Part shown: one piece after another, positions 4,405 to 32,401 of the stretch
Layout: each line of letters starts with the position of its first letter
How positions within the stretch are numbered: the stretch's first letter is position 1
NCBI GenBank assembly: GCA_003597995.1
Contig: QZJY01000071.1
Location: 1 to 51,561 of the forward strand
Length of the DNA stretch: 51,561 nucleotides
Source: Dehalococcoidia bacterium
GTDB lineage: Bacteria; Chloroflexota; Dehalococcoidia; Dehalococcoidales; UBA1222
Direction: 5' to 3'
Notes under the pieces: model-generated
What the model was told of the DNA's origin: nothing
Seen by the model: the letters and a program-made list of their open reading frames with translations, nothing else
Databases searched by the model: none
Position numbers and translations under genes: made by a program

Positions 4405-5985
4405 TCATGGTAGCGGGCACTCTATCCCCTCAACGACAACTCCGGAATCCACGTACGCAACGCCATCGCTGTTTCTTACCCGCACAACGCAGTTTACCCA
4501 CGCCGCTGCCGCATTTATCTTATGTCGCACGATTAGAAACTCATAGGCGCCCGATCCGCTGTGGTAAGGACTAGAACTCCCGCCGATATCATCACTTATC
4601 CGCACTTGCACTTGATTTGCAGCGCTCGCCTTCACCCATATTCCGAAACACGCCCATCGGCCCGCTATCAAAAGAAGGTCGGCAACCGTCTGATAGAAGT
4701 CGGTGTCCGCGCCGGCACGTGTTACGGCTGCACAGAAACTGCCTCTCCTGCGCTCTGCTGCATTTTGTGCGACACTTGCCCCCGCGCCTACTTGCAGCCA
4801 ATTATCGGGCGGCACGGCGCCCCCACCTGACCACGTCTCCATATTCCAGTTAAGCAACAAATTAGATAAGGAGACCCCCGTAGGCCAAACAGGAGCGGCG
4901 CCAAGGACAAGGCCGCCGGTCGCCATTTCTATCCGGTTGCCGCCGCCGGATAGATCGTTGACAAGCGTGGTGCTATTGTGCTGATGTAAGCCAAGAATCA
5001 GATTGCCGAACGTGTTGGGCTCAAACTGAATCGCGGTCGTAATGTTCTCGACGGTGAGGCCAATGACTTGATTCTCTCGGGCGGAGTAATGCCATGACCT
5101 TGTTCCATCATCGAAGTGAACACCAATAGTCCCGGCAGTCTTTGCGGGGTCGTTAATAGTCGTGCGCACTAAGGTATTTGCGAAACCCTTTTCTAGATGT
5201 ATGCCTTTGCTGCCAACCAGCCCGGCTAGGTTAATGCGTAAGTCCTCGATTAACGACTCATCGGCACTAGCATTATTGTCCCCGTCGTTGCCGGTTAACA
5301 TTAGATTCGTGAGGTTATTAGATAGGTAAATCTTGCGCAGATGATTCTGTATTGCCGCAACATTCACACCGCCGCCACTTATCCGTAACCCGGTACCGGC
5401 GGTGAATCCCGATATAGACACGTTTTCAATCATACACGCGCTCGGAGACGAGACATTAAGACCTATACCGTTAACAGCACCCGCTCCCGCTCTAATTGCC
5501 ACGTTTATCAGGCCGGCTCCTGATCCCACTCCTAAAGTACCGTCCCCGATCTCTACACAAGCATCTCCTGCGACATTAGAGATGAGCTGCGTTCCGTTCT
5601 CTCCGTAGCTATTACCTACCCCAATCAAGAACACGCCGGTCGGGATTACGAGCTTGCTGTTTACATCGCTAGCAATGGGACCAAGTAAAACGCCGGTAGT
5701 GACACCTAATGCACCGGCAGCATCAAGGGCATCTTGAATCGAGTCGAATAGGTCAGAGTGGAAGAGCCATTGCAGTCTAACAAGACTTGTGCCGTTGAAT
5801 CCTATGATATCCCCCTGAACTGCGCCGTCGACTGAGAATATCAACTTCCACGTCGTGCCATCATCCCAATAGATGCCCGGTGCCACATCGGTAACACGCA
5901 CTATCCGGCCGGCTTTACCTGCCGGCGGCAAGAAGGCCAGCTGAAAGCTAGGCAACGGCTCAAGGACACGCATCAAGTTGCTCAT
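4405..5985 (-). CDS. Beta-helix receptor-binding spike with C-terminal carbohydrate-binding-like domain, 526 aa
   Basis: The N-terminal peptide MSNLMRVLEPLPSF is shared with the neighbouring spike at 5997-7664, suggesting a common attachment domain on the particle (residues 1 to about 60). Residues about 75-370 are rich in N/G/V turns of pectate-lyase-like right-handed beta-helix type. Residues about 375-526 (NWNMETWSGG at their start) resemble CBM4/9-like jelly rolls that bind glycans. It is the last gene of the long late operon, just before the terminator. It most likely binds or cleaves the host surface polysaccharide; no catalytic residues can be assigned. Confidence 0.8.
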   Translation of the reverse strand: MSNLMRVLEPLPSFQLAFLPPAGKAGRIVRVTDVAPGIYWDDGTTWKLIFSVDGAVQGDIIGFNGTSLVRLQWLFHSDLFDSIQDALDAAGALGVTTGVLLGPIASDVNSKLVIPTGVFLIGVGNSYGENGTQLISNVAGDACVEIGDGTLGVGSGAGLINVAIRAGAGAVNGIGLNVSSPSACMIENVSISGFTAGTGLRISGGGVNVAAIQNHLRKIYLSNNLTNLMLTGNDGDNNASADESLIEDLRINLAGLVGSKGIHLEKGFANTLVRTTINDPAKTAGTIGVHFDDGTRSWHYSARENQVIGLTVENITTAIQFEPNTFGNLILGLHQHNSTTLVNDLSGGGNRIEMATGGLVLGAAPVWPTGVSLSNLLLNWNMETWSGGGAVPPDNWLQVGAGASVAQNAAERRRGSFCAAVTRAGADTDFYQTVADLLLIAGRWACFGIWVKASAANQVQVRISDDIGGSSSPYHSGSGAYEFLIVRHKINAAAAWVNCVVRVRNSDGVAYVDSGVVVEGIECPLP

Positions 5986-5993
5986 GACTCACC
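5951..5993 (-). repeat. Spike-start direct repeat, copy 1 (43 bp)
   Basis: This block covers the Shine-Dalgarno region and first codons of the 4405-5985 spike. It matches 7630-7672 at 38 of 43 positions; 22 bp on one side and 13 bp on the other are identical. The few differences are mainly synonymous codon changes (SNL) plus Met/Val. Confidence 0.8.
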
Positions 5994-5996
5994 TCG

Positions 5997-7664
5997 TTAC
6001 GTGACGATTGCCTGCCAGCCGAATGTTAACCCTCCGGCGCCGGGGTCGGCTGTGCAATGCACGGTGAATTGTGTGGCGGTGATCGTGTCCACCCACATAT
6101 GTCCCGGCGGGTTGGTCGTCGTTCCGGACGGGGTGATCTTGATATCCTGCACTGCCGGCGTGAGGCTTAGCCCGTGATTGATCACGACGCTGGTCGCCGC
6201 ATTCGGGATAGTGCCCGTGCCCTTGGCCTCGGTGTTGTATCCCTTGTTGTTCCGGATGAAGCAATTTGTGTCGCCGGAACGATTGAGGCCGGTGTTTAGA
6301 TTGCCGCGCAGGTGATTCTCGGTGAATTGGCTTTGCTGCAAGACTCCGCCGCCGCCTGCGTACACGAGCATGCCATAACGCTGAGTCTTGACCCCTTGGT
6401 CATCCCAGCACCGGTTGCCTTGCGCCTTGCACTCCTCGATCACGCCGGCCGCGCCGGTTGCCGCAAACGCGATGCCATCGCTGTTCGGATCAACCTGCGC
6501 GCTATTGCTTACGTGGTTGCGATCAACAGAGATCTCCGATACCGTCTTATCGGTGGCCTCGACATAGATACCATGCTCTCCGGAGCCGCGTACTCGGTTG
6601 CCTTGCACGGCGATATCGCGCAGGTTGCTGGATGCGCCGTCTAGGTGGATGCCGTAGCCCACGCTATCCCAAACGCCATTCTTGGCAATCGTGATGCCAT
6701 TCGGCGGGGTGCCGTGCGTGCCGGCGGTAACTTTGATGCCGGCGTTGCCTTGCGCCTCCCTCACCTTGTTGTCATTCACCGTCGAGTTTATCACGCCACC
6801 ACCTACCACGATACCCACGAGCGTCGCGTTCTTGATGCTATTGCCCTTCACCGTGCAATCCAGCACGTTCATTGACGGGGTAGTAAGACCGATTATGATG
6901 CCGTGGCCGGCGCAGTTTCTTACTTGATTGCCGAGCACCACACAGCCCTCAGAGTCTTGTGTGCCGTTGGGTGCATACACCGCGATGGCATCGCTATTGT
7001 TGCCATCTACCACGTTGCCGATAATCCGGCCGTCAACCGTGGAATTAACGTCAACGCCCTGCCCGCCCACAGCGCCAATATTGCAGCCCTCAACGAGCAC
7101 TTTCGTACACTGCCGGCAAAAGACACCGCTTCCATTGTTGCCACTAGCTCTCACATCACGCACGATCAAATTGGTCACGATGCGCATATCGACCCAGCCG
7201 CCCTTATCGCTGCCGGTGAATGCCGGGCCGGTGAAACGGATTGCTAGGATGCGAATGTTGCTGTTGCCGCCCACCCAATCAACGTTCCTCATAACGGTGA
7301 GCACCGGAACGCCTATCCAGTTCAAGATCGACTGATCACCCAAGCCGATGATGATGCGATTCGAGGGCACGGTGAGTACGGCACTGATATCAAACGTGCG
7401 CGGCGGGATAAAGATCGCGGGCGCGTTGTCGAGGGCATCCTGAATCGCCGCATTGTTCACAGATGCCGCGGCGCTCGAGCTTGCCCCGAATTCCTCGATG
7501 TTAGCAATCTCTCCCGTGAGACTAAGCCATTGACTGCCGTTGTCGAGCATAATACCGCGAGCACCGTCGGTGCGTACAGCGACACGACCGCGTCGGGAGG
7601 CGCGCGGCAAGTATTGCTCTGCAAACGCCGGCAACGGCTCAAGGACACGCACTAGATTACTCAT
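5997..7664 (-). CDS. Right-handed beta-helix spike, 555 aa
   Basis: The N-terminus MSNLVRVLEPLPAF matches the second spike. Residues about 70-100 hold the typical AIQDALDNAPAIFIPPRTF start of pectate-lyase-like tailspikes. Residues 100-470 show many repeating NxV/GxGI rungs (HGIIIGL, YGIHLDG, HGIYVEA). The C-terminal 70 residues (IPNAATSVVINHGL, then FTVHCTADPG) form a small beta domain often found at fibre tips. It is translated after the recombinase gene. The likely role is binding or depolymerising host surface glycans. Confidence 0.85.
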   Translation of the reverse strand: MSNLVRVLEPLPAFAEQYLPRASRRGRVAVRTDGARGIMLDNGSQWLSLTGEIANIEEFGASSSAAASVNNAAIQDALDNAPAIFIPPRTFDISAVLTVPSNRIIIGLGDQSILNWIGVPVLTVMRNVDWVGGNSNIRILAIRFTGPAFTGSDKGGWVDMRIVTNLIVRDVRASGNNGSGVFCRQCTKVLVEGCNIGAVGGQGVDVNSTVDGRIIGNVVDGNNSDAIAVYAPNGTQDSEGCVVLGNQVRNCAGHGIIIGLTTPSMNVLDCTVKGNSIKNATLVGIVVGGGVINSTVNDNKVREAQGNAGIKVTAGTHGTPPNGITIAKNGVWDSVGYGIHLDGASSNLRDIAVQGNRVRGSGEHGIYVEATDKTVSEISVDRNHVSNSAQVDPNSDGIAFAATGAAGVIEECKAQGNRCWDDQGVKTQRYGMLVYAGGGGVLQQSQFTENHLRGNLNTGLNRSGDTNCFIRNNKGYNTEAKGTGTIPNAATSVVINHGLSLTPAVQDIKITPSGTTTNPPGHMWVDTITATQFTVHCTADPGAGGLTFGWQAIVT

Positions 7665-7672
7665 GACTCACC
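7630..7672 (-). repeat. Spike-start direct repeat, copy 2 (43 bp)
   Basis: Same block as 5951-5993, in direct orientation 1679 bp away, at the start of the 5997-7664 spike and at the end of the tyrosine recombinase gene. The interval between copies holds almost exactly one spike gene, so recombination between the copies would remove or exchange one spike body while keeping the attachment peptide. Confidence 0.8.
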
Positions 7673-8501
7673 CCCACATCGGCAAGAACGGATGCTGTGC
7701 GTAAACCTGATCGTCCAGCACGCCGCCATCGGGCTTGAAGTACCGAAAGGCAATCTTCGCATGCTGATTAGGCGCCGTGCGCCATCCCATCCAGCGGTGC
7801 ACGACAACATCCGGCACGCCGGACTCGAGCAAGCCGGTGATTAGCGCGCGCCGGATGCTATGCCACCCCTCACGCTCCCGCGGCAAGCGCACGTAACCTG
7901 TCATAAGGCGGGTGAACATCTTGTGCACGCCGTCCACCCCGATCTTGCGCCCGCCAAAACGCAGGCGCTTACTAAGCACCGGCGGTATCCGGTGCTCACG
8001 CTTCCGCCCGGTCTTTACTGTCTGAACGACGAGCTTCTTTCCATCGCAGCCCGCGGAGATTACCGCGGCGATCTCAGCAGCGCGCAATCCGTAGACCGTT
8101 GACAAGGCCACCGCGACGACAGCTGAGCCAGCCACCGGCTTCATTGTCTTGATTAGCCCGGCGATATCCTGCACACCCATTACGATGCCGCCCTCATCTT
8201 CCTGTGGCAATCCAAGGTGCAGATCCCGGCGCTGCAACGGCCACGGCAAGTTATTTGCGTGGAACATGGCCCGCACGCCGCCTAGGATCGTATGGATGCT
8301 CTGCTCTTTGTAGCCGGCGAGCACCAGCTTGTCTACATATGATAACACGTCCTCTCGAGTGTAAGCCGGCCGGGCGCCAAGGACGGCTAGAAATCGCCTT
8401 GACTGGCCTAGGAACGCTGAGATCGTGTTCTCGCTGTAGCGTGCCCCTAGGCTCGCCCGCAAGCGTAATAGGTACTGGTACTCGAGAGTGCTATCACTCA
8501 A
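7668..8501 (-). CDS. Tyrosine recombinase, 277 aa
   Basis: The catalytic set is visible: R140 (VYGLR), K163 (TVKTGRK), H214 and R217 (WHSIRR), H235/W240 (HRWMGW) and Y254 (AFRYFK). The N-terminal 100 residues look like a SAM-like core-binding domain. The start is TTG 8501, overlapping the stop of the 8494 gene; the Shine-Dalgarno is weak, so translation is probably coupled. It lies inside the late operon beside the spike genes, not in an early lysogeny module. A role in spike exchange or resolution of genome multimers is as likely as integration. No attachment site was identified. Confidence 0.88.
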   Translation of the reverse strand: MSDSTLEYQYLLRLRASLGARYSENTISAFLGQSRRFLAVLGARPAYTREDVLSYVDKLVLAGYKEQSIHTILGGVRAMFHANNLPWPLQRRDLHLGLPQEDEGGIVMGVQDIAGLIKTMKPVAGSAVVAVALSTVYGLRAAEIAAVISAGCDGKKLVVQTVKTGRKREHRIPPVLSKRLRFGGRKIGVDGVHKMFTRLMTGYVRLPREREGWHSIRRALITGLLESGVPDVVVHRWMGWRTAPNQHAKIAFRYFKPDGGVLDDQVYAQHPFLPMWG

Positions 8502-8826
8502 GGCGCAACCGTCCCGCGTACATTGAAATGCGTTGGCGCGCAGATAGTCCTGATACCAGTAGCGGCCGAATCGCCCGCGTCAAGGCATTGAGCGCGGTGT
8601 CTGGATAGAGATATAAAAGCGTTACGTTCTTGGTCATATTTTGTGGTATCTCACGCCAGAACAGGCCACCTACCAGATACCGTCCCCGCCACTTCCGTAC
8701 GAAAGGCAAATGTCCTGCGCGCACACGATCAAGCTGGAGTATCCCGTCCCATACCGTCGTGGTATGCAGCGCCGGCCCGCACACGATGATATCTTTGCCG
8801 GTATGGATGCCGTGCCTTGTCTTCAC
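8494..8826 (-). CDS. Hypothetical protein, 110 aa
   Basis: GTG 8826 overlaps the upstream stop as TAGTG. It is a basic protein with VRAGHLPFVRKWRGRYLVGGLFWRE in the middle (only part quoted as motif: KWRGRYLVGG). It ends eight bases inside the recombinase gene. No family recognised; position between the lectin-like gene and the recombinase suggests a late function. Confidence 0.65.
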   Translation of the reverse strand: MKTRHGIHTGKDIIVCGPALHTTTVWDGILQLDRVRAGHLPFVRKWRGRYLVGGLFWREIPQNMTKNVTLLYLYPDTALNALTRAIRPLLVSGLSARQRISMYAGRLRLE

Positions 8827-9671
8827 TAGCCCACTCCTAATAGGGCAAGATGACCAACGGTGGCCGCGGGCGCCGCGGCGGCAACGTAGTATCGGCGGCG
8901 CGGAATCAACGGCCGATATAGCTCCCAGCGAGTCTGGGGGTCGTAGAGCTGACGCGCCTGCTCGACAGTAAGAGCGCGATTATAGATCCGAGTGTCGAAG
9001 ATTGTGGCGTTGACAGAAGCGTTATCTAGGTTAGAGCGACCGATCAACGTAGGGTAGATGTTGTTGTACGTAATGGTACCTGAATAGGCTGCAGCAGTCA
9101 CCAATTGTTGCACGCCATTGACGTAGTACCGCAAATTGTCGCCGCTGCGCCACGTACCGACTAGACAGTAAACTGTGTTTGCGCTAAGGACATACTGCCC
9201 AGCATCCCGAAAAACGTTACTGATCGTAACGAAGAACCCGCTTTGAGCACCACCTACAGAAGTGCTCTCTCGGAGTCCGTAACTCAAATAGGGAGGACCA
9301 CCAGCAACCTGCTTGCCAACGTAAACTCCAAAGTCATCTTGCGAGCCAGAGCCGGTACGCACCCATGATACAAGTGTGATAGCGTTCGATGGTTCGCTGA
9401 TCGCGCCCACGTTGATGTAGTCGCCGCCTACATCCTCAAACTGGATACCAACTCCTAGCTCGGCATTTGTGATGTGGATAGGGGTACCGCCGAATATGCC
9501 GTTTCTAGCCCTGCCGCTGTAATCGCGCAGCACGTTTTGCCCGCGACTACCGAGCGTCGGCCACCAGCCAACAAGGCCCTCGGCCTGCTCTGAATCCCTG
9601 TTGACCGTGAACGGTACGCCGGTCGGTGGCTTGCGATAAGGCCAGCCATGTTTGGCTAGTAAGAGAGACAC
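8826..9671 (-). CDS. LamG/concanavalin-like lectin domain protein, 281 aa
   Basis: GTG 9671 follows GGGGGCGG. Residues about 30-245 show the laminin-G_3 pattern: GLVGWWPTLG, FEDVGGDYINVG, ITLVSWVRTG, NLRYYVNGVQQ, ATIFDTRIYNRALTVEQARQ. This fold is a jelly-roll that binds carbohydrates, common in virion adhesins. The tail RWELYRPLIPRRRYYV is typical of environmental phage LamG proteins. It is a probable second receptor-binding protein in the adhesion part of the late operon. Confidence 0.85.
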   Translation of the reverse strand: MSLLLAKHGWPYRKPPTGVPFTVNRDSEQAEGLVGWWPTLGSRGQNVLRDYSGRARNGIFGGTPIHITNAELGVGIQFEDVGGDYINVGAISEPSNAITLVSWVRTGSGSQDDFGVYVGKQVAGGPPYLSYGLRESTSVGGAQSGFFVTISNVFRDAGQYVLSANTVYCLVGTWRSGDNLRYYVNGVQQLVTAAAYSGTITYNNIYPTLIGRSNLDNASVNATIFDTRIYNRALTVEQARQLYDPQTRWELYRPLIPRRRYYVAAAAPAATVGHLALLGVG

Positions 9672-9681
9672 TTACCGCCCC

Positions 9682-10266: not shown

Positions 10267-10269
10267 TGT

Positions 10270-10662
10270 TTACCCCCTTGCCGCGGTGACGTGCCCCGTG
10301 CGTACCCGTTCGAGACCGATTTCCTCAGCGCGGCTTCCTTTGCGAGTCTGGAGCACGATAAGATTGGCCCGTGTCGCGCTGCCGGCGCCGAACATGGCGG
10401 CCAGCGCCGTGCGGATGTTTTGACTGGCGATGCTTATCGTGCCGGCAGAGATAATGGTCAAGTATGTTTGCTTTTGGTCAGCAGTTAGCCCGGCAAAGTC
10501 AGCGGGCGCCGTGGCATCAAGAATCTCCCACGTTTGGATTATGTCTCGCGGCACGTTTCGCAGCGTCGGATCGTTGAGCCTTGCAGCGGCCGCATTATCC
10601 GACATGCCCGCGTACCCCCACCCCAAGGGGTCGTTTAGCAGCTCCTCTCGCAAAACGCTCAT
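10270..10662 (-). CDS. Conserved phage protein of the LLNDPxGxGYAGM type, 130 aa
   Basis: The N-terminal motif ELLNDPLGWGYAGMSD and the C-terminal segment (SRAEEIGLERVRTGHV) define a widespread small helical protein found beside structural genes of many tailed and unclassified phages. Its function is unknown. The start is probably ATG 10662 (GGGG at 5 bases); GTG 10668 is possible but too close to that site. Confidence 0.75.
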   Translation of the reverse strand: MSVLREELLNDPLGWGYAGMSDNAAAARLNDPTLRNVPRDIIQTWEILDATAPADFAGLTADQKQTYLTIISAGTISIASQNIRTALAAMFGAGSATRANLIVLQTRKGSRAEEIGLERVRTGHVTAARG

Positions 10663-10670
10663 ACTCACCC

Positions 10671-12617
10671 CTACGCTACTTTGCTCTGAAATCCGGTCAC
10701 TGAGATATACACGGTATCCAGCGCCGCTGACACGTCGTAGGCCAGCGCCGTGTTGGCGCTAGTCTTGAACAATGGTTCATCAGACACGATGTTGGCACCG
10801 CTGTTCGCCGGCAATGGCACCGTCCAGAGCACGGCGCCCGCCGCACCGTCCCGGAAGTCGAGGTAGCCCGGCGTCGCGCTCGAGTTGTAAACCGAGTAAC
10901 CGCGCACGTAGTTCTTGACACCGGCCACCGCGGCAAAGTTGGTAAACGCTGTGGCAACGCCATCGGCATTGGTTACGCGCTCGCTAACGAGATCGCCTAG
11001 CGCCGCGGATTGCCGAACGAGTATCGCCCCATCAAGATCGGCGTAGCCATCCGTACGATCACCGCTTGCAACAAGCGTCACCGCCTCAAGGCTAGATACC
11101 GCCTTGGCACCGATCTTGATCGGATTGCCCGCATCCACCGCGTCGTGGGCCACCGCGCCCACCACCTGAGCATTGAGATTAGCTGCTGTGGCCTGTACTA
11201 TGGTTACGTCGCCGGACACCCTAGTCACGTCAACATCAAGGCCATTTGCTGCATCACCGGTGATTGCCACCGGCCCACCGGCGCCCGGCACGGCAAGACC
11301 AACCGAGACACGGTTCACGGTACCCGCGCCGCTGTCGAGGTCTAGCTCCGCAAATGTGATAAAGGCCACCCCGTCCGATAATCGCACGGCAACCGGCGTG
11401 CCTACCGGCGCATCAACGGTAAGACTACCGCCATTGTCGTCAACGCTCAGTAGACCGGTTGAGTCGTTGGCAATCGTGACACGGAGGGCGGTTGCCTCAG
11501 CTCCTCCTCCAACAACGGAGAGCGCGGCGTTATCAACCGTAAGAGAGCCGCCGTTATCGGACACCGGTACGGGATTGCCGACCCCTACGTCGGCATTGCC
11601 TACCTGGAGGTTGGCGTTGAGATTCAGATTGTCGTGGGTGGCCTGAACTACCGTCACGTTGCCCGACACGCGGGTTACGTCTACATCGAGGCCATTGGCG
11701 GCATCACCGGTGATTATCACGTGACCGCCGACGCCTGCTACGCCAAGGGCAACTATCCCGTGTGTGTCACCGCCCCCTAGGCTATCGAGATCAGCCTCAT
11801 CTCCTAGGAAATCGGTGATACCCACATTGCCGATGGTATTTGCCCCGGCCGGCAACGAGGCGGCGACTTCAACAGGCATATTGAGATTGCCGGCCGCATA
11901 ACCCACGGCCGTCCAAGCACCGGCGCCATTCTGCACTTGAGTCTGAGCAGCACCGCCGCCAGCGCCACCCGCCACCACATTGACACGCACTGCTGTATTG
12001 GCAAGATCACCCACCGCGATGATGTTGCCGAGGCCATCGGTTACGCGCACCGGCCATGCATTTGCCGCCGCTGCCGGCGCGCCTTGGTCGACGGTGCCTT
12101 GGATCGGCATGTTGAGATTACCGCCGGCATAACCCACGGCCGTCCAAGCACCGGCGCCATTCTGCACTTGAGTCTGAGCTACACCGCCGCCCGCTCCGCC
12201 GGCCACCACGTTGACACGGACGGCGTTGTTAACCGCATCACCCACCTGCACGATAGCAGCGCCGGTTGAGGCCGCAATCGGCCACGCATTGGCCGCCGCC
12301 GCCGGGCTACCTTGGTCGACAGCGCCCTGCACCGGCATATTGAGATCGCCGGCAAAGTAGCCCACCGGAGTCCAAGCACCGGCGGCATCTCTTACTTGAG
12401 TCTGCGCAATACCACCACCGGCGCCGCCGGCCACCACGTTGACGCGCAGCGCATTGTTGGCTTGATCGCCCACCTCAACGCGCGTACCGGCGTCAGTGGC
12501 GACGATAGGGACGGGATTGGCATCATCAGCCGTGATCACTACCCGACCGTTGGCATCGACTTGTACAAGGGTAGGTATCCCGGCGCTGGTGTAGCCGACT
12601 AAGACCTGCCGTCCCAT
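10671..12617 (-). CDS. Repeat-rich fibre-like structural protein, 648 aa
   Basis: AAGGAGG precedes ATG 12617. Three tandem units of about 76 residues (near 50-125, 126-202, 203-252) share RVNVVAGGAGGG, AQTQVQNGAGAWT and VGYAxGNLNMP. A second pair of units shares ITGDAANGLDVDVTRVSG. The C-terminal 150 residues form a separate beta domain (TNADGVATAFTNFAAV, NYVRGYSVYNSS). Composition (A/G/N/V/D) and repeats suggest a trimeric fibre or surface decoration. Units 2 and 3 are also close at nucleotide level, so copy number may vary by recombination. Confidence 0.75.
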   Translation of the reverse strand: MGRQVLVGYTSAGIPTLVQVDANGRVVITADDANPVPIVATDAGTRVEVGDQANNALRVNVVAGGAGGGIAQTQVRDAAGAWTPVGYFAGDLNMPVQGAVDQGSPAAAANAWPIAASTGAAIVQVGDAVNNAVRVNVVAGGAGGGVAQTQVQNGAGAWTAVGYAGGNLNMPIQGTVDQGAPAAAANAWPVRVTDGLGNIIAVGDLANTAVRVNVVAGGAGGGAAQTQVQNGAGAWTAVGYAAGNLNMPVEVAASLPAGANTIGNVGITDFLGDEADLDSLGGGDTHGIVALGVAGVGGHVIITGDAANGLDVDVTRVSGNVTVVQATHDNLNLNANLQVGNADVGVGNPVPVSDNGGSLTVDNAALSVVGGGAEATALRVTIANDSTGLLSVDDNGGSLTVDAPVGTPVAVRLSDGVAFITFAELDLDSGAGTVNRVSVGLAVPGAGGPVAITGDAANGLDVDVTRVSGDVTIVQATAANLNAQVVGAVAHDAVDAGNPIKIGAKAVSSLEAVTLVASGDRTDGYADLDGAILVRQSAALGDLVSERVTNADGVATAFTNFAAVAGVKNYVRGYSVYNSSATPGYLDFRDGAAGAVLWTVPLPANSGANIVSDEPLFKTSANTALAYDVSAALDTVYISVTGFQSKVA

Positions 12618-12901: not shown

Positions 12902-13210
12902 CTATTTTGTGGCCTTGTAGGCAAGGCCGGCTAGCCCGGAAAGCGCCAAGGTCAAGAGCACATACCACGCGCCCGGCACGTAGTAATAAGCCACAAGGAT
13001 AATACCACTCGCCCAAACACTCATACACCAAAAGCACGAGGCGAGCTTACCGAAGAACGTATCGCTGTACCAGTTGCCCGCGATATCTTGATGAGCACCC
13101 AAGGCAATCCGCATGCGCGCAAAGACGGCCGCCGGACCGTCTTCTATGGTCAGGAGATGAGTTAGGCGCCACACAGCCGCGGACAAAACCAAGAGGGTTA
13201 GGAGATCCAC
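12902..13210 (-). CDS. DUF1360 membrane protein, 102 aa
   Basis: Residues 1-24 are one hydrophobic segment ending in RLTHLLTIEDGP. A second is at about 66-80 (ASGIILVAYYYVP) and a third at 82-98. The signature CFWCMSVWASG (C-x2-C followed by W) is that of DUF1360. These proteins occur in Bacillus and actinobacterial phages and spore-formers; function unknown. It is embedded in the late operon, so it may be a membrane component of the particle or act late in infection. Confidence 0.82.
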   Translation of the reverse strand: MDLLTLLVLSAAVWRLTHLLTIEDGPAAVFARMRIALGAHQDIAGNWYSDTFFGKLASCFWCMSVWASGIILVAYYYVPGAWYVLLTLALSGLAGLAYKATK

Positions 13211-14617: not shown

Positions 14618-15238
14618 CTACACGAAATTGATCTTATTGAACCAGATTGTCCGTTGCACCGGTACCCGCCCGTTGATGGTCGGGCTAGCGTAGCCATCAG
14701 CATCCTGCGGCGTCCGCCGCTCGTATACCTCAAGCACCGCTGTTGCCGCGCCGCGGGTAGGCGGCGCCCCCGCAATCGGGTTCAGGTAGTCGCCCGGCCA
14801 TATCTGAGCACAGAGACTCTGTGCTTGGCACCCCGTCGGCTGCGGTTGCTCCGGTGGCACCAAGACGTTCTCAGTCGGCGCGTTGGCCGGCTGCAAGTGC
14901 GTGCCGGCAAGCCCACTGCCGTACACCGTGACCCATTGCTCGCCGCGCCGCTGGAGAAGCCGGAAATAGGCGTAGCTATCGCGCCCCGGCCCGGCGTACG
15001 CCATGGTGGGCATTACCGCCGCCACGAGATCCCCTATCGGCACGGTGATAGCGCCCACCCCGTCAAACGTCTGACAATGGATCGGCCCCATTTGCTCCCC
15101 CGCCCCAAGCGGCGCCAGCGGCCCGATCTCATCAGCAGCTTGCCCGCCCCCACCGCTGCGGGCAAGACCGAGTACTACGAGGCCTAGCCCAACGCCGCCA
15201 AGGACGAGCGCCGTTCCCATCTTGTTGTCATCAGCCAT
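14618..15238 (-). CDS. Signal-anchored structural protein, 206 aa
   Basis: GAGGTGAGAT precedes ATG 15238. Residues 8-26 (GTALVLGGVGLGLVVLGLA) are one membrane helix; the remaining 175 residues are a beta-rich ectodomain with C-x-C-like cysteines (TGCQAQSLCAQIWPGDYL). It continues the run of single-anchor proteins in the late operon. No family recognised. Confidence 0.7.
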   Translation of the reverse strand: MADDNKMGTALVLGGVGLGLVVLGLARSGGGGQAADEIGPLAPLGAGEQMGPIHCQTFDGVGAITVPIGDLVAAVMPTMAYAGPGRDSYAYFRLLQRRGEQWVTVYGSGLAGTHLQPANAPTENVLVPPEQPQPTGCQAQSLCAQIWPGDYLNPIAGAPPTRGAATAVLEVYERRTPQDADGYASPTINGRVPVQRTIWFNKINFV

Positions 15239-15246: not shown

Positions 15247-15723
15247 TCACAGGATTCCTAAGATGCGCACGGTGGCCGCGTTGGCGGCGTTGGTGTTCCG
15301 GAAGCCAATATGCTCGTAGGTCGGATACGGCACGAGCACGCTTTGCGTCTCGGTTGCGTTGAGGGTTTGCCATGCCGCGCCGCCAAAAGGCACCTGATAG
15401 TCTATTGCCCCCGGTCCGTCGTTGGTGACGATAAAACCGAATACCTTTTCACCACCGAACCGGGCTTGCTCGCTAATGCCGGCGGCAATCGTTAGCGTGA
15501 TGGGCAGCAAGATGCCGCGCAGTTGTCGTCGCGCCAGATCGCTGGTAACGAGCTTCAACTCTCGTACGATCTGCGATAGCAACCCGAGCACATCATCGCC
15601 ACCCGCCGCCGGCAATTGTGGCGCGGGCGGATAACTCGGTTGATTAGGCGGCACGAACACGCCCCCGTCCCCCGTGTTGCCTATTGGCGGCCCTTGCCGC
15701 CACCCTTCACGCAATGGCCTCAT
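15247..15723 (-). CDS. Beta-sandwich structural protein, 158 aa
   Basis: AAGGAG precedes ATG 15723. Residues about 1-45 are Pro/Gly-rich, 45-68 a helix (LLSQIVRELKLVTSDLARRQ) and 70-158 a small beta sandwich with FIVTNDGPGAIDYQVPFGG and HIGFRNTNAANAATV. Such domains occur in minor capsid or spike-base proteins. Neighbours are equally small beta proteins. Specific role unknown. Confidence 0.65.
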   Translation of the reverse strand: MRPLREGWRQGPPIGNTGDGGVFVPPNQPSYPPAPQLPAAGGDDVLGLLSQIVRELKLVTSDLARRQLRGILLPITLTIAAGISEQARFGGEKVFGFIVTNDGPGAIDYQVPFGGAAWQTLNATETQSVLVPYPTYEHIGFRNTNAANAATVRILGIL

Positions 15724-17228: not shown

Positions 17229-17233
17229 TGTCA

Positions 17234-17548
17234 CTACCCCGCTATCACGGCATCAAAGCCGATAACGGCAAGCGTTTTGACAAGTGCCCCAAGGAACTCC
17301 TCCAACGCGGCCTCAAGTTTGGCGTCCTTGAGTGGCAAGAAACCGGTTTGCTCAGGAACGATCATAAGGTAGTCACCGAAGACGTTGGCGGCATTCACGC
17401 GCATTTTAAGGGTAGTCACGACTGCCAGTTGCCGACCAAGCCAGTCCATGGGCGTGGGTTCTTTGTCGATGAGCAGCGCCTCGTCGCCGGGCGCCGGCTC
17501 TACCCGCACACAAGGTCGGTTTCGCCAGTTTACTCGCCTTAGGATCAC
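17234..17548 (-). CDS. Hypothetical late protein, 104 aa
   Basis: GGAGGAG precedes GTG 17548. An alpha/beta protein with MDWLGRQLAVVTTLKMRV in the middle and a helical C-terminus (LEAALEEFLGALVKTLAVIG). The frame begins four bases inside the YkgJ-like gene, so the two are translationally coupled. Function unknown. Confidence 0.62.
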   Translation of the reverse strand: MILRRVNWRNRPCVRVEPAPGDEALLIDKEPTPMDWLGRQLAVVTTLKMRVNAANVFGDYLMIVPEQTGFLPLKDAKLEAALEEFLGALVKTLAVIGFDAVIAG

Positions 17549-18402
17549 TTTCTCCTCCTTCCAACCCGCATTACCATAACCGGTAGTCCGTCGCGGTCCT
17601 CGAGCGGCACTTGCTCAGCAATAGAGTTATCGGCTGCCTCTGCCCGCCATTGTCGCTCGAGTTGCTCCTGCCAGAGCAGCAGATAGCCGGTGCCCCAGCC
17701 TACCGCCGCCTTGACCAAGGGCACTTTGCCGTCGTCAAGGAGCCCAGCCAGCTCCTTGGCGCGGAAGCGCTCGTAGAGCATGGTCACGAAGAATCCCTGC
17801 CGGTCGTAGCGCCGCTCGATTATGCTTTTAAGCAGCTTGTCCACGTCGCGATAGAGATTAAGACTGCGATCCCGCCCGTCCCAATAGGTGCGCGAGCCGA
17901 TATCTTCTGCCGGGCCGAGCGGACGCGGACAATGCGGTGCCGGCACGCGCGTTACCCCATACGCGCGACACACCAGCGGCCTACCCCAATGGACTAGGCA
18001 TTGCTTTGTCTCTTGATCGAGTAGAACACACGGCTCTTGCAATGCCTGCTCGAACTCGCCACGCAGGTCACTCCAAAGCTCGGGAGTGATCTTGCTGCCG
18101 TACGTGTACCGGTTGTCGCGGCGCGTGAGCCAGTCGTGGCAGCGGTCCAGTACCGGGTTTATCAGCCGCGGCTGCCCCAAGAGCCACGAGGCCGCCAGCT
18201 CGGCCTCGATGCCGTAGGCGACAACCGAGTTATGATGGCAACATAGGCCGCATTTGGCTACGCATATCGGCCCGCCTATTGCCGTCTCGATCTCGGTTGC
18301 CGCCTGCGCATAACCCCGGTGCACTCGCTCGAGGCGTGACCAGTAAGTCAGCAGGCGCATTTGCTCCGGGCTAGGCCGAAGCTCAATCGCCGGCTGTCTC
18401 AT
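17545..18402 (-). CDS. YkgJ-type cysteine-cluster protein, 285 aa
   Basis: ATG 18402 overlaps the upstream stop (TAATG). Two cysteine groups are visible: CVAKCGLCCHHN near residue 48 and, about 75 residues later, CVLL...QCLVHWGRPLVCRAYG. This is the arrangement of the YkgJ/UPF0153 zinc- or iron-chelating family (C-x-x-C-x-x-CC ... C ... RPxxCR). A further Cys lies at PHCPRP. Family members are of unknown enzymatic function and are unusual inside a structural operon. It could process or assemble a particle protein; that is speculation. Confidence 0.75.
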   Translation of the reverse strand: MRQPAIELRPSPEQMRLLTYWSRLERVHRGYAQAATEIETAIGGPICVAKCGLCCHHNSVVAYGIEAELAASWLLGQPRLINPVLDRCHDWLTRRDNRYTYGSKITPELWSDLRGEFEQALQEPCVLLDQETKQCLVHWGRPLVCRAYGVTRVPAPHCPRPLGPAEDIGSRTYWDGRDRSLNLYRDVDKLLKSIIERRYDRQGFFVTMLYERFRAKELAGLLDDGKVPLVKAAVGWGTGYLLLWQEQLERQWRAEAADNSIAEQVPLEDRDGLPVMVMRVGRRRK

Positions 18403-18887
18403 TACGTGCCCAGCCCCGTGAGCACCGACACCGAGGCGTTGATCGTATCGTCGGCGGCGGCATTGCTACTTGCGGCATCCCCGAGGATGCCATCGGTTGC
18501 CGCGTCCGGAACCACCGTGCCCACAAACGGGAATTGCAGGCCGGGATAGCCGCCGGCGTCCGTCGCGATCTCGAAACGCACCTCGATGAGTTGGGCAGAC
18601 AGAGCGCCCGCCGCGGCCGCGCCGTTACCGATCTTCACGATGAAGATCGAGGCGGCGCTTGGGGTATCGCACACCAAGCCCACGATCTTGAAGTTCTCAG
18701 TGATCGTGGCCTTGGCAACGATGGCCTTCACGTTGGCGTTGGCCGCCGCGTACTTGTACGCACCGGTCGTGAGGCCGCTGGCCTTGAGCGCGGTGCCGGC
18801 GGCATTGGCCGGATATTCCGTCATGCGCAGGCCTGTGCCGCGCACCTGCTGGTTGTAGAGACTACGCACTTCTTGTGCAAGACCCAC
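18402..18887 (-). CDS. Beta-sandwich structural protein, 161 aa
   Basis: GGAGG precedes GTG 18887. The N-terminal 30 residues are helical, and the rest is Ala/Gly-rich beta: ATITENFKIVGLVCDTPS, IFIVKIGNG, QLIEVRFEIATDAGG, FVGTVVPDAATD. The strand pattern is that of a single jelly roll. Together with 18927 and 19365 it forms a set of similar-sized beta proteins, which may be paralogous capsid components. Confidence 0.65.
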   Translation of the reverse strand: MGLAQEVRSLYNQQVRGTGLRMTEYPANAAGTALKASGLTTGAYKYAAANANVKAIVAKATITENFKIVGLVCDTPSAASIFIVKIGNGAAAAGALSAQLIEVRFEIATDAGGYPGLQFPFVGTVVPDAATDGILGDAASSNAAADDTINASVSVLTGLGT

Positions 18888-18926
18888 GATTTAACCTCCG
18901 TTCCGCCATTTCGTGGGCGGTTAATA

Positions 18927-19352
18927 CTAGAAACCGGTCTTCGTGTTGAGCTTGACATCCACGGTATCGGCGGCGCCCGTGGACGTGCGATACCGGGCGG
19001 CCACACGGGTACCGGCCGGCACTCTTATCGGGCTATCGAACACGAACTGGGCATTGGTGGTCTGCACGCGCGCAATAGCAACCTCCGCGGCTCCCGCGCC
19101 AATACCAATCTCGATCTCGGCTTGGCTTGCGGCGCCCACGAAGTTCTCCAGACTCCCGCCGGTGATCTGTACCTCCGCGGTGCCCACCGTTGCGGCAATC
19201 TGCGCCCAGTTTCCCCACGTCCACGCCACCGCGGCTGAGGTTAGCGTGACGGCCGCCGCCGCCGCCGCGTCTGCGCTCGTGGGCAATGTGCCGTAGCGTA
19301 TATTCTCGCTACGGACAAGCAGGTTAAACACGCGTCGAAGGAGCAGCATCAT
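18927..19352 (-). CDS. Beta-sandwich structural protein, 141 aa
   Basis: GGGGGCG precedes ATG 19352. A basic N-terminal helix (MMLLLRRVFNLLVRSENIRYG) is followed by an Ala-rich beta domain with AEIEIGIGAGAAEVAIARV and FDSPIRVPAGTRVAARYRTS. The latter pattern (paired strands around a PAGTR turn) occurs in small phage surface proteins. Probable particle component. Confidence 0.65.
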   Translation of the reverse strand: MMLLLRRVFNLLVRSENIRYGTLPTSADAAAAAAVTLTSAAVAWTWGNWAQIAATVGTAEVQITGGSLENFVGAASQAEIEIGIGAGAAEVAIARVQTTNAQFVFDSPIRVPAGTRVAARYRTSTGAADTVDVKLNTKTGF

Positions 19353-19364
19353 AGCGGCGCCCCC

Positions 19365-19922
19365 TTATGCGGAGGGCGCGGAGACGATGGCTCCAATGGG
19401 TTCGATTGTGCGCGCTAGCAGATGCAAGCGCTCGGTGTTGGCAGCGAATGCCAAGCGCGGCATGACCATGATCCGGCAGGTCTCTTGGCGCGTGAACAAC
19501 ACGGCCTCTGAGAAGTAGCCGGCGGGCTCGAGGCGGCTGTAGAGCTGCTCGAGCTGGTACACGCCACGGATAAGGGCACTCCCGGCGCCCAACGTCATGC
19601 GCAGCCGCGAGATGCTCGCGGCCGCAGTCTCGACGCCAAGGCCGTAGAACACGATGCAGCGGTCGACTGCCAAGACGGCCGAGATGTATTGCAGCTCGGT
19701 TGCCACGACGCCCGCGCCGGCGATGAGCCAGTCTTCCTGTGCGGCGAGACCCAAGTCGGTGTTGGGCAGCGTGTCGCGGATGATGAGGTCGCGGTCGTTG
19801 CTGCGGATCGCGAGGTCGCGTGCGGCGTTAACCAGCACCTCCTCAGCGTTCTGGCGAATGGAGACCCGCGCATCGAGGCTGAGGTCGCCAATCGGGATAA
19901 GATAGCTCTTGGTTGGCGCCAC
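19365..19922 (-). CDS. Candidate capsid/structural protein, 185 aa
   Basis: GGGAGG precedes GTG 19922. Beta-rich with helical insertions: YLIPIGDLSLDARVSI, DWLIAGAGVVATELQYIS, CRIMVMPRLAF. Size and place suggest a capsid component on a par with 16105-16707. No recognised family. Confidence 0.62.
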   Translation of the reverse strand: MAPTKSYLIPIGDLSLDARVSIRQNAEEVLVNAARDLAIRSNDRDLIIRDTLPNTDLGLAAQEDWLIAGAGVVATELQYISAVLAVDRCIVFYGLGVETAAASISRLRMTLGAGSALIRGVYQLEQLYSRLEPAGYFSEAVLFTRQETCRIMVMPRLAFAANTERLHLLARTIEPIGAIVSAPSA

Positions 19923-19976
19923 GTTAGAACCTCCCTAATGTTTCAATTCCCATCCGAGCGGGAACGGATGTGAAGG

Positions 19977-19997
19977 GAGGGGTGCCAAGCACCCCTC
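19977..19997 (-). terminator. Intergenic hairpin after the 19998 gene
   Basis: GAGGGGTGC (19977-19985) and GCACCCCTC (19989-19997) form a 9-bp stem with loop CAA directly after the stop codon of the upstream gene. A second small inverted repeat (CATCCG/CGGATG) lies at 19951-19970. No U-run follows, so partial termination or mRNA stabilisation between structural genes is more likely than full termination. Confidence 0.5.
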
Positions 19998-20378
19998 TTA
20001 GACCAGAGTGCGCTTTGGTGCACCGGCCACGCTACCTACGTAGCCACGCGCGGCACCGGCGCCATTCACCTGGTACGGTGCAAAGGACCCGCCGCCCCGC
20101 GCGTACGCAGAGCCGGAGAGGAACCGGGTACCGACCATGGTGCCCACCCGACGACCAAGAAGGGCGGCGCCGCCGTCTACCACCCCGTCTACGATGTTGG
20201 GCATCGTGAACGGAGAGAAGTACTGGAGCGCACCACCACCGATGAGGGCCAAACCCTCAACAAGCGCCGCGGGCGTGATCGCAAAGCCACCGAGGACAAT
20301 GGGCGCCATGCTCGAGGTCTCGAGCATACCGCTTGCCACGCCCACAGCGGCCGCGGAGCCGGTTCGAACGAGATGCAT
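19998..20378 (-). CDS. Small membrane protein, 126 aa
   Basis: GGGAGG precedes ATG 20378. Hydrophobic segments at about residues 12-24 and 26-55 (APIVLGGFAITPAALVEGLALIGGGALQYF) are followed by a Gly-rich basic C-terminus. In the late operon beside another multi-span protein. It may be a virion membrane protein. Confidence 0.68.
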   Translation of the reverse strand: MHLVRTGSAAAVGVASGMLETSSMAPIVLGGFAITPAALVEGLALIGGGALQYFSPFTMPNIVDGVVDGGAALLGRRVGTMVGTRFLSGSAYARGGGSFAPYQVNGAGAARGYVGSVAGAPKRTLV

Positions 20379-20436
20379 GGTAAACCTCCCTAGTTAATAT
20401 CGCCCGCCCATGGTCACCTACCCAAGTGCTGCCCGC

Positions 20437-21237
20437 TCACCCCCTTCCGACAACGCGCACGGGCCGCGAGCCGCCAAGCTCACCGCCCACCGATACACGG
20501 CCGCCACCCACCGGCACATCCACGTTGGCACGCGCCTGCGCAATTGGAAATAGCAAAGAGCCGCCCACGAGGATTAAACCCAACGCGGCCAGCGGCCACA
20601 TGGCCTCGCGCACCGGAGCCGCGATATTCTCCCCCGGCGCGCGTATCACATCTCTCCCGAAGTCCAGCACCTCCCGCGCCTTCAGGTTGCCCGTTGCCGC
20701 CGACAAGATGCTGAACACAGAGATCAGACCGGCAATGATGCCCATAACGATGATTAGCACGGCGGCCGGCGCGAGCGCCCGCACGCTCGCGGACAAGCCG
20801 GCGACCATAGGCACGACCGGGCCGGGACCGGTAATGCGCCCCGCCATCCAGAGCCGGTACTCGTAGGCGCTAACCAGCGTACTGCCGGCCAACGGGATGC
20901 ACCAATCGGTGAACGGCACGCAAATCTGTCCCGGCACGTCCGCGCAATAGCCGCCCACGCAAATCTGGCTAGGCACCGACACGTTGACGATAGGGCGCTC
21001 CCAGAGGTAGTATGCGATGGGCAACTCCCCGTTGTTCCCAAACTCGATAGCCAATCCGTCGATTAGCTGCCGCAAGGCGCGCGTGTCGATGCGCTCGGCG
21101 CGCCTAAAATCCAGCCGCAAGGTCGATAGATCATCATCCGGGCGCGTGGAGAAATAGGCCGGATAGGCGTAGGCAGACGCTAGCGTCGCGCCGGGCGGGC
21201 CATCCGGCAACGTGGCTTGCGAGATGATGTCTGTCAC
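20437..21237 (-). CDS. Two-span membrane protein with cysteine loop, 266 aa
   Basis: GGGAGGTGAC precedes GTG 21237. Residues 1-130 are a soluble domain with four cysteines (near 93, 98, 106 and 113: CVGGYC, QICVPFTDWC), probably extracytoplasmic disulphides. Membrane helices lie at about 155-181 (AAVLIIVMGIIAGLISVFSI) and 212-231 (MWPLAALGLILVGGSLLF). The C-terminus is Gly/Arg-rich. Likely a particle or assembly membrane protein. No family recognised. Confidence 0.7.
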   Translation of the reverse strand: MTDIISQATLPDGPPGATLASAYAYPAYFSTRPDDDLSTLRLDFRRAERIDTRALRQLIDGLAIEFGNNGELPIAYYLWERPIVNVSVPSQICVGGYCADVPGQICVPFTDWCIPLAGSTLVSAYEYRLWMAGRITGPGPVVPMVAGLSASVRALAPAAVLIIVMGIIAGLISVFSILSAATGNLKAREVLDFGRDVIRAPGENIAAPVREAMWPLAALGLILVGGSLLFPIAQARANVDVPVGGGRVSVGGELGGSRPVRVVGRG

Positions 21238-21241
21238 CGTG

Positions 21242-21574
21242 TCACCTCCCTAGGCCGAGCCACCGCATGGGTAGACCGAGCGCTAAGCGCGTACCTACCC
21301 GCTCGACCCACTTCTGGCCGGCCGGCGTAGCCAGCACTTCTCCAAGGTCAGGGCGCACCACTTGCAAGGCGGCATAGAACTCACGATCAGAAACACCGAT
21401 GAGCGAGGGATTGTCGTCGATATAGCGCAAGGCGCGCTCGATAAAACCCTCCGGCCACGTGCCGGCTTGCACGTGCGCGGCCAGCTCCTGATCAGTAGCA
21501 TCTGCCGTGACCTCGGTTATGAGTTGCAATAGCAGCTCGGCGTTCGCGGCGCCGGGACGCCTTAGCAACATCAT
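21242..21574 (-). CDS. Helical hypothetical protein, 110 aa
   Basis: GGGGGTG precedes ATG 21574. It is alpha-helical throughout, with ELLLQLITEVTADATDQEL, then EGFIERALRYIDDNPSLI, and a C-terminal amphipathic stretch. The start overlaps the end of the upstream coiled-coil gene by four bases. Function unknown. Confidence 0.65.
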   Translation of the reverse strand: MMLLRRPGAANAELLLQLITEVTADATDQELAAHVQAGTWPEGFIERALRYIDDNPSLIGVSDREFYAALQVVRPDLGEVLATPAGQKWVERVGTRLALGLPMRWLGLGR

Positions 21575-22584
21575 ATCGCACCCCCTTGCTCATCAGCCGG
21601 CGCGTTGCTACCGTACTCCGCCCCGCAACCGTTGCAGATTACGCCGGGCCAGCCCTCCCGGTACATGATCATCGTGCCGCATTGCACACACGACATGGTA
21701 AGAGCGCCGTTTGGCGCACTTGCCGCCCGCACAGCGGGCGCCGGCTCTGTAGCCGCATAGGCGGCGGCGGGCGCACCGGCGCCACCGCGCGTCATGTGCT
21801 CCACGAACCGGCCTAGGATATCGACCACTTTAGGCGCCGTCTCCGACAAGAAGCGATCAACGCGCTGGTAATGCTGCTCTTTGGCCGCGATATCGCGCAC
21901 TTGCGTCTCATGCGCAAGCTCAAGTTCCCGGATACGCTCCGCGTGCCGATCCTCGCGCTCCGCCATGTAGCGCTGGTGCTCGAGTTCCGCCCGGCGCACC
22001 CACGCCATGACAGCCCCGTCATCCCCTTGCGGCGCCGGAGCAACCGGCTCCCTAGACGGCGGGGAGAACATTTCAATTAGCGCCTTAGCCTCCTCAACGC
22101 TTGTCTTGACAAGGCTCATGGTAGATTGCGGCGGCTGGTTGCGCTCAGCCGTCTGTCGCCCCAGCTCCTGCTGGAGCAAGGCAATGCGCTCGTTTAGCAT
22201 ATCCAGTTGCTGAGCGCTGAGCGCGCGCTGCGTTTCGGATAGCTGCGCTTGGGTGCCCTCAAGTTGCTTTAGGATGTATTGCACCCACTCGTCGTTCGTC
22301 CCCGCACGCCCCGTGCGCTGTTGCTCGCGCACTTCCTTGAGCTGCTCTTGCTCGATCTGAGCCTTGAGTAACTCGTTTTGGGTTTTCAAGGCCTCCGCCT
22401 CAGCATCAGCCACCGAATGCGCGATGATCTTGTCGCCTAGGAGTTGCTTCTTGATCTTGAGCGCCTCCTCAAGCGGATCGGCAACGGCCGACGTGCCGTT
22501 GCGCTTGAGCGTACCCGCGGCTGCCCGGCGTTGAAACTGCTCACGGAAGTCTGCACTACTAAGCCCCGGCTGTTGCTGGCTCAA
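21571..22584 (-). CDS. Coiled-coil protein with C-terminal zinc ribbon, 337 aa
   Basis: TTG 22584 follows GGAGGTGG. Residues about 40-250 are long charged helices (KIKKQLLGDKIIAHSVADAE, ELELAHETQVRDIAAKEQ) typical of coiled coils. The last 40 residues carry CVQCG and CNGCG, a C4 zinc ribbon. As the second gene of the late operon it could be a scaffold, internal or assembly protein. Its start overlaps the upstream gene by 26 bases. Confidence 0.7.
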   Translation of the reverse strand: MSQQQPGLSSADFREQFQRRAAAGTLKRNGTSAVADPLEEALKIKKQLLGDKIIAHSVADAEAEALKTQNELLKAQIEQEQLKEVREQQRTGRAGTNDEWVQYILKQLEGTQAQLSETQRALSAQQLDMLNERIALLQQELGRQTAERNQPPQSTMSLVKTSVEEAKALIEMFSPPSREPVAPAPQGDDGAVMAWVRRAELEHQRYMAEREDRHAERIRELELAHETQVRDIAAKEQHYQRVDRFLSETAPKVVDILGRFVEHMTRGGAGAPAAAYAATEPAPAVRAASAPNGALTMSCVQCGTMIMYREGWPGVICNGCGAEYGSNAPADEQGGAI

Positions 22585-23224
22585 GCAGTCCCACCTCCTC
22601 TCGATTTACGATCACGATTGCAAGTCCACTGCAGTTCGTAATATGGTCAAGGAGCATGTCGGTTATCCACGCCCCTATCGAGCCATCTCCTTGATGCCAG
22701 CCGTGCTGGCGGTACCAGTCATACCACACGCGCAATGTCACGGGGAGGGCGACGAACTCCTTGGCGCTGGATACTTTAGGTGGGCCGGCCGGCGGCTCGA
22801 CACTCCACTCCTCATCCCCGCCCACCGGCACGTCGGCCGGTAACTCGCTTTGCTGGCGATTAAGCCGCTGCGCCAACGCCTCCGGATCTTCAGGCTCATC
22901 GTTAAAATCGTTAAGATTAGGATACCACTCATCTAGCAGACTAGGCCGCCGGGTATCCGGCTGCTCCGGCTCCGGCTCAAGGTCAAGCGGCGTGCCGGCG
23001 GTGTCCAGATCCGGCGGAGGCTGGTCAGTGGTCCAACGTGGCTTTGTCGGCGGTGTAAGTTGCGGCTCGTCGTCGGCGCTGTCCCTTACCTTCCAAATTT
23101 TCCCTTTGCATTGCGGTCGGGACTTCCAACCTTTGCGGTGGCCGCACACCGCACCCCAGTTGCCCTCGTAGCCACAAGGGCATTTCCAGATGCTACCTGG
23201 TAGAGGCTTCTCGAGAATCGCCAC
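22559..23224 (-). CDS. Zinc-ribbon protein at head of late operon, 221 aa
   Basis: I take GTG 23224 as start because AAGAGG lies 9 bases upstream; TTG 23233 is too close to that site. The N-terminus has WKCPCGYEG, VCGHRKGW and a further Cys, a zinc-ribbon pattern. Residues 65-140 are acidic and Pro-rich, and residues 150-221 are a folded domain (LRVWYDWYRQHGWHQGDGS, DMLLDHITNCSGLAIVIV). First gene after the divergent promoter region. Function unknown. Confidence 0.68.
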   Translation of the reverse strand: MAILEKPLPGSIWKCPCGYEGNWGAVCGHRKGWKSRPQCKGKIWKVRDSADDEPQLTPPTKPRWTTDQPPPDLDTAGTPLDLEPEPEQPDTRRPSLLDEWYPNLNDFNDEPEDPEALAQRLNRQQSELPADVPVGGDEEWSVEPPAGPPKVSSAKEFVALPVTLRVWYDWYRQHGWHQGDGSIGAWITDMLLDHITNCSGLAIVIVNREEVGLLEPATAGA

Positions 23225-32400: not shown

Positions 32401-32401
32401 G

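Follow-up and report, generated by a model that had tools for sequence, protein, structure and literature searches.

What kind of virion is built from a late operon in which none of the usual head and tail genes of tailed phages is recognised? This question is raised by contig QZJY01000071.1 of the Dehalococcoidia assembly GCA_003597995.1 (here C71), which was analysed in its entirety as a window of 51,561 bp and belongs to a 1.8-Mb bin (G000). Genes are referred to by their first coordinate in the window. The original prediction, made from the sequence, was a large non-tailed, membrane-containing virus. The follow-up supports it through a jelly-roll protein encoded in the operon (19365) and a complete relative of about 40 kb with no detectable tailed-phage hallmark or packaging ATPase, while the membrane itself is deduced from hydrophobic segments. 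C71 probably covers the greater part of the genome of a tailless icosahedral double-stranded DNA (dsDNA) virus, most likely of Dehalococcoidia, with a jelly-roll shell, an internal membrane and, probably, motor-free packaging. The gene content, a conserved gene block, the modelled fold of 19365 and the absence of detectable hallmark genes are shown by the analysis; the icosahedral shell, the membrane, the motor-free route of packaging and assembly and the host of this contig are what we infer.

About 25 close-packed open reading frames (ORFs) make up the late operon, which starts at 23233 and ends at 4405 on the minus strand. Its longest ORF has 648 codons, as the original prediction stated, and the account given there of a 19-kb operon devoid of tailed-phage genes was likewise upheld. 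No match to terminase, portal, HK97 capsid, protease, tape measure or tail tube was obtained among the operon products scanned against PHROGs and Pfam, and none to terminase, portal, HK97 or tape measure among the window proteins scanned with hidden Markov models (HMMs). The absence of HK97 capsid and portal applies at the level of sequence profiles among the proteins scanned, here and in the complete relative. The sole sub-threshold hint in the operon, g13224 against the head-tail adaptor phrog_783 (E 0.088), is at chance level. The missing hallmark genes are an informative negative because the same search did detect them elsewhere in the bin, on contigs C45 (terminase large subunit TerL, 3.7e-43; connector, 5e-152; major head protein, 7.9e-87; tail genes) and C1 (portal and major head protein). 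The TerL profile was positive in C45 and in 11 of 14 control genomes. The operon had no megablast match among phages and plasmids, and ten of its proteins, concatenated, had no tblastn match in 50,697 phage records; tblastn with the versions of the operon proteins from the complete relative gave a single match at chance level against phage records, and no IMG/VR relatives were found for 20437, 49104, 17545 and 28635. Credible Walker-A motifs were present in three window proteins only, all of AAA or RepA-like types and none inside the operon:
31345..32646, minus strand: MCM/AAA-like ATPase of the early region
35656: AAA_25 protein
49104..50879, minus strand: FtsH-like AAA ATPase of the early region (PF00004, 7.9e-34)

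In a first search for relatives, nine concatenated operon proteins were compared with 393 genomes of the class; the matches, to 16105 and 19365, were weak yet syntenic. One IMG/VR genome and another Dehalococcoidales bin were added with profiles of the 16105 family, and in a scan of 84,980 species all three matches were Dehalococcoidia. The five homologous elements comprise four in Dehalococcoidia bins (L027, L028, L029 and L034) and the IMG/VR genome (G739). A block containing 16105, with 19365 and a 15734-like gene where the contig extends that far, recurs in all five with its order kept. The genes concerned are:
19365..19922, minus strand: 185 amino acids (aa), single jelly roll and proposed major capsid protein resembling VP4 of Sulfolobus polyhedral virus 1 (SPV1), a small virus infecting heat-loving archaea; homologs in G739, L027, L028 (two tandem paralogs) and L029
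16105..16707, minus strand: 200 aa, candidate second capsid or vertex protein; homologs in G739, L034, L029, L027 and L028
15734..16117, minus strand: 127 aa, conserved virion-block protein (blastp 1e-7 to L027)

In the longer or closer relatives the order is a 19365-like gene, a small protein, a 16105-like gene, a 15734-like gene, two small proteins, a small N-anchored protein and a fibre. HMMs built from the relatives only detected 19365 (E 1e-22), 16105 (9e-23) and 15734 (7e-7) in the window, the first two being the best-conserved genes of the family; the remaining family HMMs reached about 0.08 at best, and the other gene correspondences are therefore by position only. The host of C71 is most likely a member of Dehalococcoidia, a placement that relies on the relatives and not on bin membership. 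The two tandem paralogs of the jelly-roll family in L028 (L028:9040-10262, G588:C29) are 185 and 214 aa long.

Records of the IMG/VR type may be fragments. An identical sequence of 127 bp, directly repeated, lies at either end of G739 (IMGVR_UViG_3300024262_000007, 40,124 bp, listed as viral), and the junction is crossed by one fibre ORF of 493 codons; on these two grounds the genome was taken to be circular and complete, at 39,997 bp. The virion block of the window is present in it as well. No credible Walker-A protein was found in six frames (ORFs of at least 100 aa), and profile searches gave no match to TerL (phrog_2), the HK97 capsid or DUF87/HerA. Since G739 has no P-loop protein, 49104 of the window lies outside the shared core. 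Most long ORFs of G739 are accounted for by two sliding clamps, DUF5131, a tyrosine recombinase, proteins of the ArdC and zincin types, and fibres, so that TerL, portal, HK97 capsid and tape measure could hardly all be accommodated; the long ORFs not assigned encode 419 aa, 293 aa (with two anchors) and 255 aa. The two sliding-clamp genes (L036:5600-6730 and L036:18242-19492) are DnaN-like, and no polymerase or helicase was recognised in G739.

The product of 19365 had been put forward as a jelly-roll candidate, and the model bears this out, its best solved match being the capsid protein of a tailless membrane-containing virus. In the AlphaFold2 model (predicted local distance difference test, pLDDT, 76.9; predicted TM score 0.77) the protein is a single jelly roll, in which a helix at the N-terminus precedes a barrel of some eight strands. 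With VIA-align, the top solved match was SPV1 VP4 (6oj0_A; Z 8.4, 137 residues, root-mean-square deviation 3.8, 10% identity), in an alignment covering model residues 21 to 180, nearly the whole protein. The runners-up were nucleoplasmin-type jelly rolls at Z 6.9 and lower, and capsid proteins of P23-77 (5.8), HHIV-2 and SH1 (both 5.7), together with picornaviral VP3, spanned 5.4-5.8. Foldseek gave SPV1 VP4 a probability of 1.00 and TM scores of 0.50/0.52, far above any other TM score in the list, and a match with a probability of 1.00 was also obtained in BFVD. No double-jelly-roll capsid proteins were among the fold matches listed for 19365, which excludes nothing.

Several results weigh against reading C71 as a tailless virus with 19365 as its capsid protein. 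The model of 19365 was built on five aligned sequences. SPV1 ranked only 18th by E-value (4.9e-3) in the Foldseek PDB list, below jelly rolls with other functions, and tail proteins were among the top BFVD matches, so the function of 19365 is not fixed by its fold alone. A profile of the 19365 family searched against PDB sequences up to an E-value of 10 did not find VP4, a weak test with a four-row profile. The model of 16105 reached a pLDDT of 32, was unusable and was discarded. A terminal repeat was looked for in C71 and none was found, and the genome may therefore be incomplete. Moreover, top Z values of 7-8 are common in VIA-align for models that lack a clear match, which makes a Z of 8.4 by itself suggestive; the argument for a capsid protein accordingly rests jointly on fold, conservation, position and the missing hallmark genes. 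Taken jointly, these suggest that 19365 would serve as the major capsid protein.

The BFVD matches to tail proteins also bear on a different origin, in which C71 comes from a tailed phage with its head and packaging genes located elsewhere, for instance on contig C45, the operon is a tail-fibre and decoration region, and 19365 is a decoration or fibre jelly roll. Genes for TerL, portal and capsid and podovirus tail genes are present on C45, a 14-kb contig of the same bin; C71 is not closed, its spikes and fibres are similar to tailed-phage ones, and its early region has genes in common with tailed phages. The two contigs, however, share no terminal overlap of 20 bases or more, and the tetranucleotide correlation between C45 and pieces of C71 is 0.32-0.46, as against 0.75-0.89 within C71, 0.75-0.81 within G739 and 0.64-0.92 within ten phage loci. 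On this composition C45 was rejected as the source of the missing head genes. The complete G739, moreover, has the same block and no detected terminase, portal or HK97 gene, and we regard a tailed-phage origin as unlikely. C45 (L052:1-14245) is a separate podovirus fragment with TerL, portal, capsid, tail tubular and internal virion proteins. A second phage-like region of the bin, at C1:38000-41000 (L053), has a portal and a major head protein and is probably a prophage remnant; this contig provided the only other stretch of the bin compared in chunks, and its tetranucleotide correlation with C71 is 0.09-0.20.

Two small co-conserved proteins could instead form a helvetiavirus-like shell of the P23-77/SH1 type, with 19365 and 16105 as two jelly-roll capsid proteins and the packaging ATPase either off the contig or too diverged. 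The matches of 19365 to the capsid proteins of P23-77, SH1 and HHIV-2 (Z 5.7-5.8) and the tandem copies of its family in L028 would fit such a shell. SPV1 VP4 leads the matches of 19365 by a margin, however, profile comparison found no link between the 16105 and 19365 families, and the complete G739 has no credible P-loop protein or DUF87/HerA match; we hold this arrangement to be quite improbable. In a tailless virus with 19365 as major capsid protein, 16105 would be a second shell or vertex component. The other proteins of the virion block and the first genes of the operon are:
18402..18887, minus strand: 161 aa, between 19365 and 16105; matched by position only to a 147-163-aa protein of the relatives, the HMM giving no link
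18927..19352, minus strand: 141 aa, positional counterpart of the same 147-163-aa protein, with a weak blastp match to G739_34749 (E 0.036)
15247..15723, minus strand: 158 aa, virion-block protein whose counterpart, by position only, is a 158-aa protein in the relatives
22559..23233, minus strand: 224 aa, first gene of the late operon, with a Cys-rich motif at its N-terminus
21571..22584, minus strand: 337 aa, coiled-coil-like by eye, with zinc-ribbon-like CxxC pairs at its C-terminus; no confident family match

A CxxCxxCC (YkgJ-type) zinc/iron-binding protein is encoded within the virion block at 17545-18402, and L028 carries an apparently unrelated gene of 244 aa near the same place.

Hydrophobic segments occur in the following products of the window:
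20437..21237, minus strand: 266 aa, candidate membrane protein with two strong segments (160-178 and 215-233); the positional counterpart in G739 (27883-28764) also has two segments, with no sequence match
19998..20378, minus strand: 126 aa, basic, one segment, directly upstream of 19365; positional counterparts in G739 (33507) and L029 (3912)
14618..15238, minus strand: 206 aa, N-terminal anchor; small N-anchored proteins at the corresponding place, by position only, in G739, L029, L034 and L028
13952..14599, minus strand: 215 aa, tentatively cell-wall-hydrolase-like from its sequence, with a weaker C-terminal anchor by eye
12902..13210, minus strand: 102 aa, membrane protein of the phage family phrog_781, function unknown (E 1.9e-12), with one segment
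28635..31325, minus strand: 896 aa, PKD-repeat protein (3.5e-26) with a C-terminal anchor, a possible surface protein with a Hoc-like decoration match (1.2e-7)
4055..4330, plus strand: 91 aa, holin-like, two segments, outside the operon

The original prediction counted at least six proteins with membrane segments in the operon. Such segments are seen in 20437, 19998, 14618 and 12902 and weakly in 13952, and 28635 and 4055 lie outside it. An SLT transglycosylase, a probable lysis enzyme (PF01464, 6.6e-14), is encoded on the plus strand at 3286..4017. The lysozyme-like domain claimed for 13952 was not recovered, as it has no significant Pfam or PDB match, and no support was found for a parallel with P7 of PRD1 or with that lineage, the likeness being to single-jelly-roll viruses. 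Proteins with one or two hydrophobic segments stand at corresponding places in G739, L028, L029 and L034, and such segments are what an internal membrane beneath a jelly-roll shell would require.

The many anchored or surface-type proteins and the lack of a packaging motor could also belong to a different morphology (enveloped pleomorphic or filamentous) or to a capsidless plasmid-like element, with the jelly rolls as receptor- or carbohydrate-binding surface proteins. Carbohydrate-binding jelly rolls score close to SPV1 in Foldseek, and polyvalent proteins of the ArdC/ART type are present, which occur on plasmids too. Yet no plasmid record matches by megablast, IMG/VR lists G739 as viral, the spikes, lytic transglycosylase and fibre genes are virus-like, and the match to SPV1 VP4 spans nearly all of 19365, which makes these possibilities very unlikely.

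In the tailless icosahedral virus that we favour, the shell would be built from 19365 as single-jelly-roll major capsid protein, with 16105 probably its second conserved component or vertex protein. An internal lipid membrane would carry, or be organised by, the small anchored proteins 20437, 19998, 14618 and 13952. Vertex spikes, namely the beta-helix proteins 4405 and 5997, the LamG protein 8826 and the repetitive fibre 10671, would bind the host, and the tentative anchored wall hydrolase and a tyrosine recombinase would accompany the virion proteins. Shell and membrane would probably assemble around the condensed genome, as in SPV1; because no P-loop ATPase can be recognised in the complete relative G739, a terminase or FtsK/HerA motor is probably not what drives the DNA into the particle. 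The spike, fibre and recombinase genes are:
4405..5985, minus strand: second spike-like protein, sharing an N-terminal motif with 5997
5997..7664, minus strand: beta-helix spike protein (PF13229, 6.7e-20; tail spike phrog_7458, 5.6e-12)
7668..8501, minus strand: tyrosine recombinase (blastp 3e-11 over 278 aa to its G739 homolog; integrase phrog_1/216)
8826..9671, minus strand: LamG/concanavalin-like, probable attachment protein (PF13385, E 1.3e-13)
10671..12617, minus strand: 648 aa, repetitive fibre-like protein with a repeat unit common to 17 IMG/VR loci

Both spikes (4405-7664) begin with MSNLxRVLEPLPxF and diverge behind this motif, which suggests, from the sequences, a common virion anchor with exchangeable receptor-binding parts. 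The fibre-like 10671 was rejected as a guide to relatives of the virus, since its IMG/VR matches share the repeat unit only, with no synteny, and represent a widespread fibre repeat. Polyvalent proteins of the ART-PolyVal, ArdC-N and zincin types cluster beside the virion block (window 23845-25938, L037:9301-12117 and L027:9985-14466) and are possibly delivered with the genome. A second long minus-strand cluster, from about 51066 to 31345, forms the replication and early region and encodes a primase zinc finger, RecT, a RepA-like ATPase, a VRR nuclease, a methyltransferase and a topoisomerase-VI-like protein. It also holds a gene for a pyridoxal phosphate-dependent enzyme-like protein at 39190-40014 (PF00291, 1.1e-12).

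Among known systems, Caudoviricetes have spikes, fibres, lysis genes, RecT, primase and topoisomerase-like genes in common with the window, but their terminase, portal, HK97 capsid, tape measure and tail tube were not found here. The double-jelly-roll Tectiliviricetes (PRD1, PM2) are likewise tailless, membrane-containing viruses of bacteria, and an anchored wall hydrolase would recall PRD1 P7; the capsid candidate modelled here, in contrast, is one jelly roll of 185 aa, and no packaging ATPase was found. The window genome is three to five times the size of the PRD1 and PM2 genomes. Helvetiavirae (P23-77, SH1, HCIV-1, HHIV-2) have jelly-roll capsid proteins of similar size and are known to be tailless with an internal membrane, as is proposed here, and the capsid family is present in L028 as two tandem paralogs; Helvetiavirae differ in an FtsK/HerA-type packaging ATPase, which was not found in the complete G739, and in a weaker fold match. 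Their genomes are also smaller than those described here (Simuloviridae 16-19 kb, Sphaerolipoviridae about 30 kb; PMC12642351, PMC12643093).

The likeness to Portogloboviridae (SPV1) is in the single-jelly-roll capsid fold, with VP4 as the best solved match of the 19365 model, in circular dsDNA (for G739), in the lack of a detected packaging ATPase in G739, and in several predicted membrane proteins and mostly short ORFs. SPV1 itself has no packaging ATPase (PMC8812541) and has several predicted membrane proteins and mostly short ORFs (PMC8459092). The differences lie in genome size (about 20 kb versus 39,997 bp for G739 and at least 51.6 kb for the window, a two- to threefold increase), in the host (Saccharolobus versus Dehalococcoidia bins for the relatives here), in the presence of lysis enzymes and beta-helix spikes and, for the window, of a replication region of phage type, and in the lack of detectable sequence similarity. 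For the penton protein VP10, a second jelly roll, 16105 (model pLDDT 32) is the candidate counterpart; in respect of the internal lipid layer and VP1 nucleoprotein core, what is seen in the window are hydrophobic segments. The window virus thus works like a portoglobovirus but is not assigned to that family, being set apart by its genome size, by its host and by sequences in which no similarity was detected.

Portogloboviruses are known from a single archaeal genus only (PMC8459092). In the literature searched, which does not cover most subscription papers and preprints, no description was found linking Portogloboviridae with Chloroflexota or bacterial relatives, and priority is not established. 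On balance, by a small margin over even, we favour a new lineage of bacterial tailless single-jelly-roll viruses of 40 to more than 51 kb with no encoded packaging motor, a bacterial counterpart of the portogloboviruses in which some members have a duplicated capsid gene. Portogloboviruses have been proposed to resemble the ancestor of helvetiaviruses before duplication of the capsid gene and gain of a packaging ATPase, and the tandem capsid copies of L028 correspond to the step proposed for that origin (PMC8812541). If the lineage is real, bacterial fold relatives with no ATPase, one of them with a duplicated capsid gene, would make this scenario directly testable, tailless bacterial viruses would be able to attain 40-50 kb, and searches by hallmark genes (terminase, portal, HK97, double jelly roll, HerA) would overlook such viruses.

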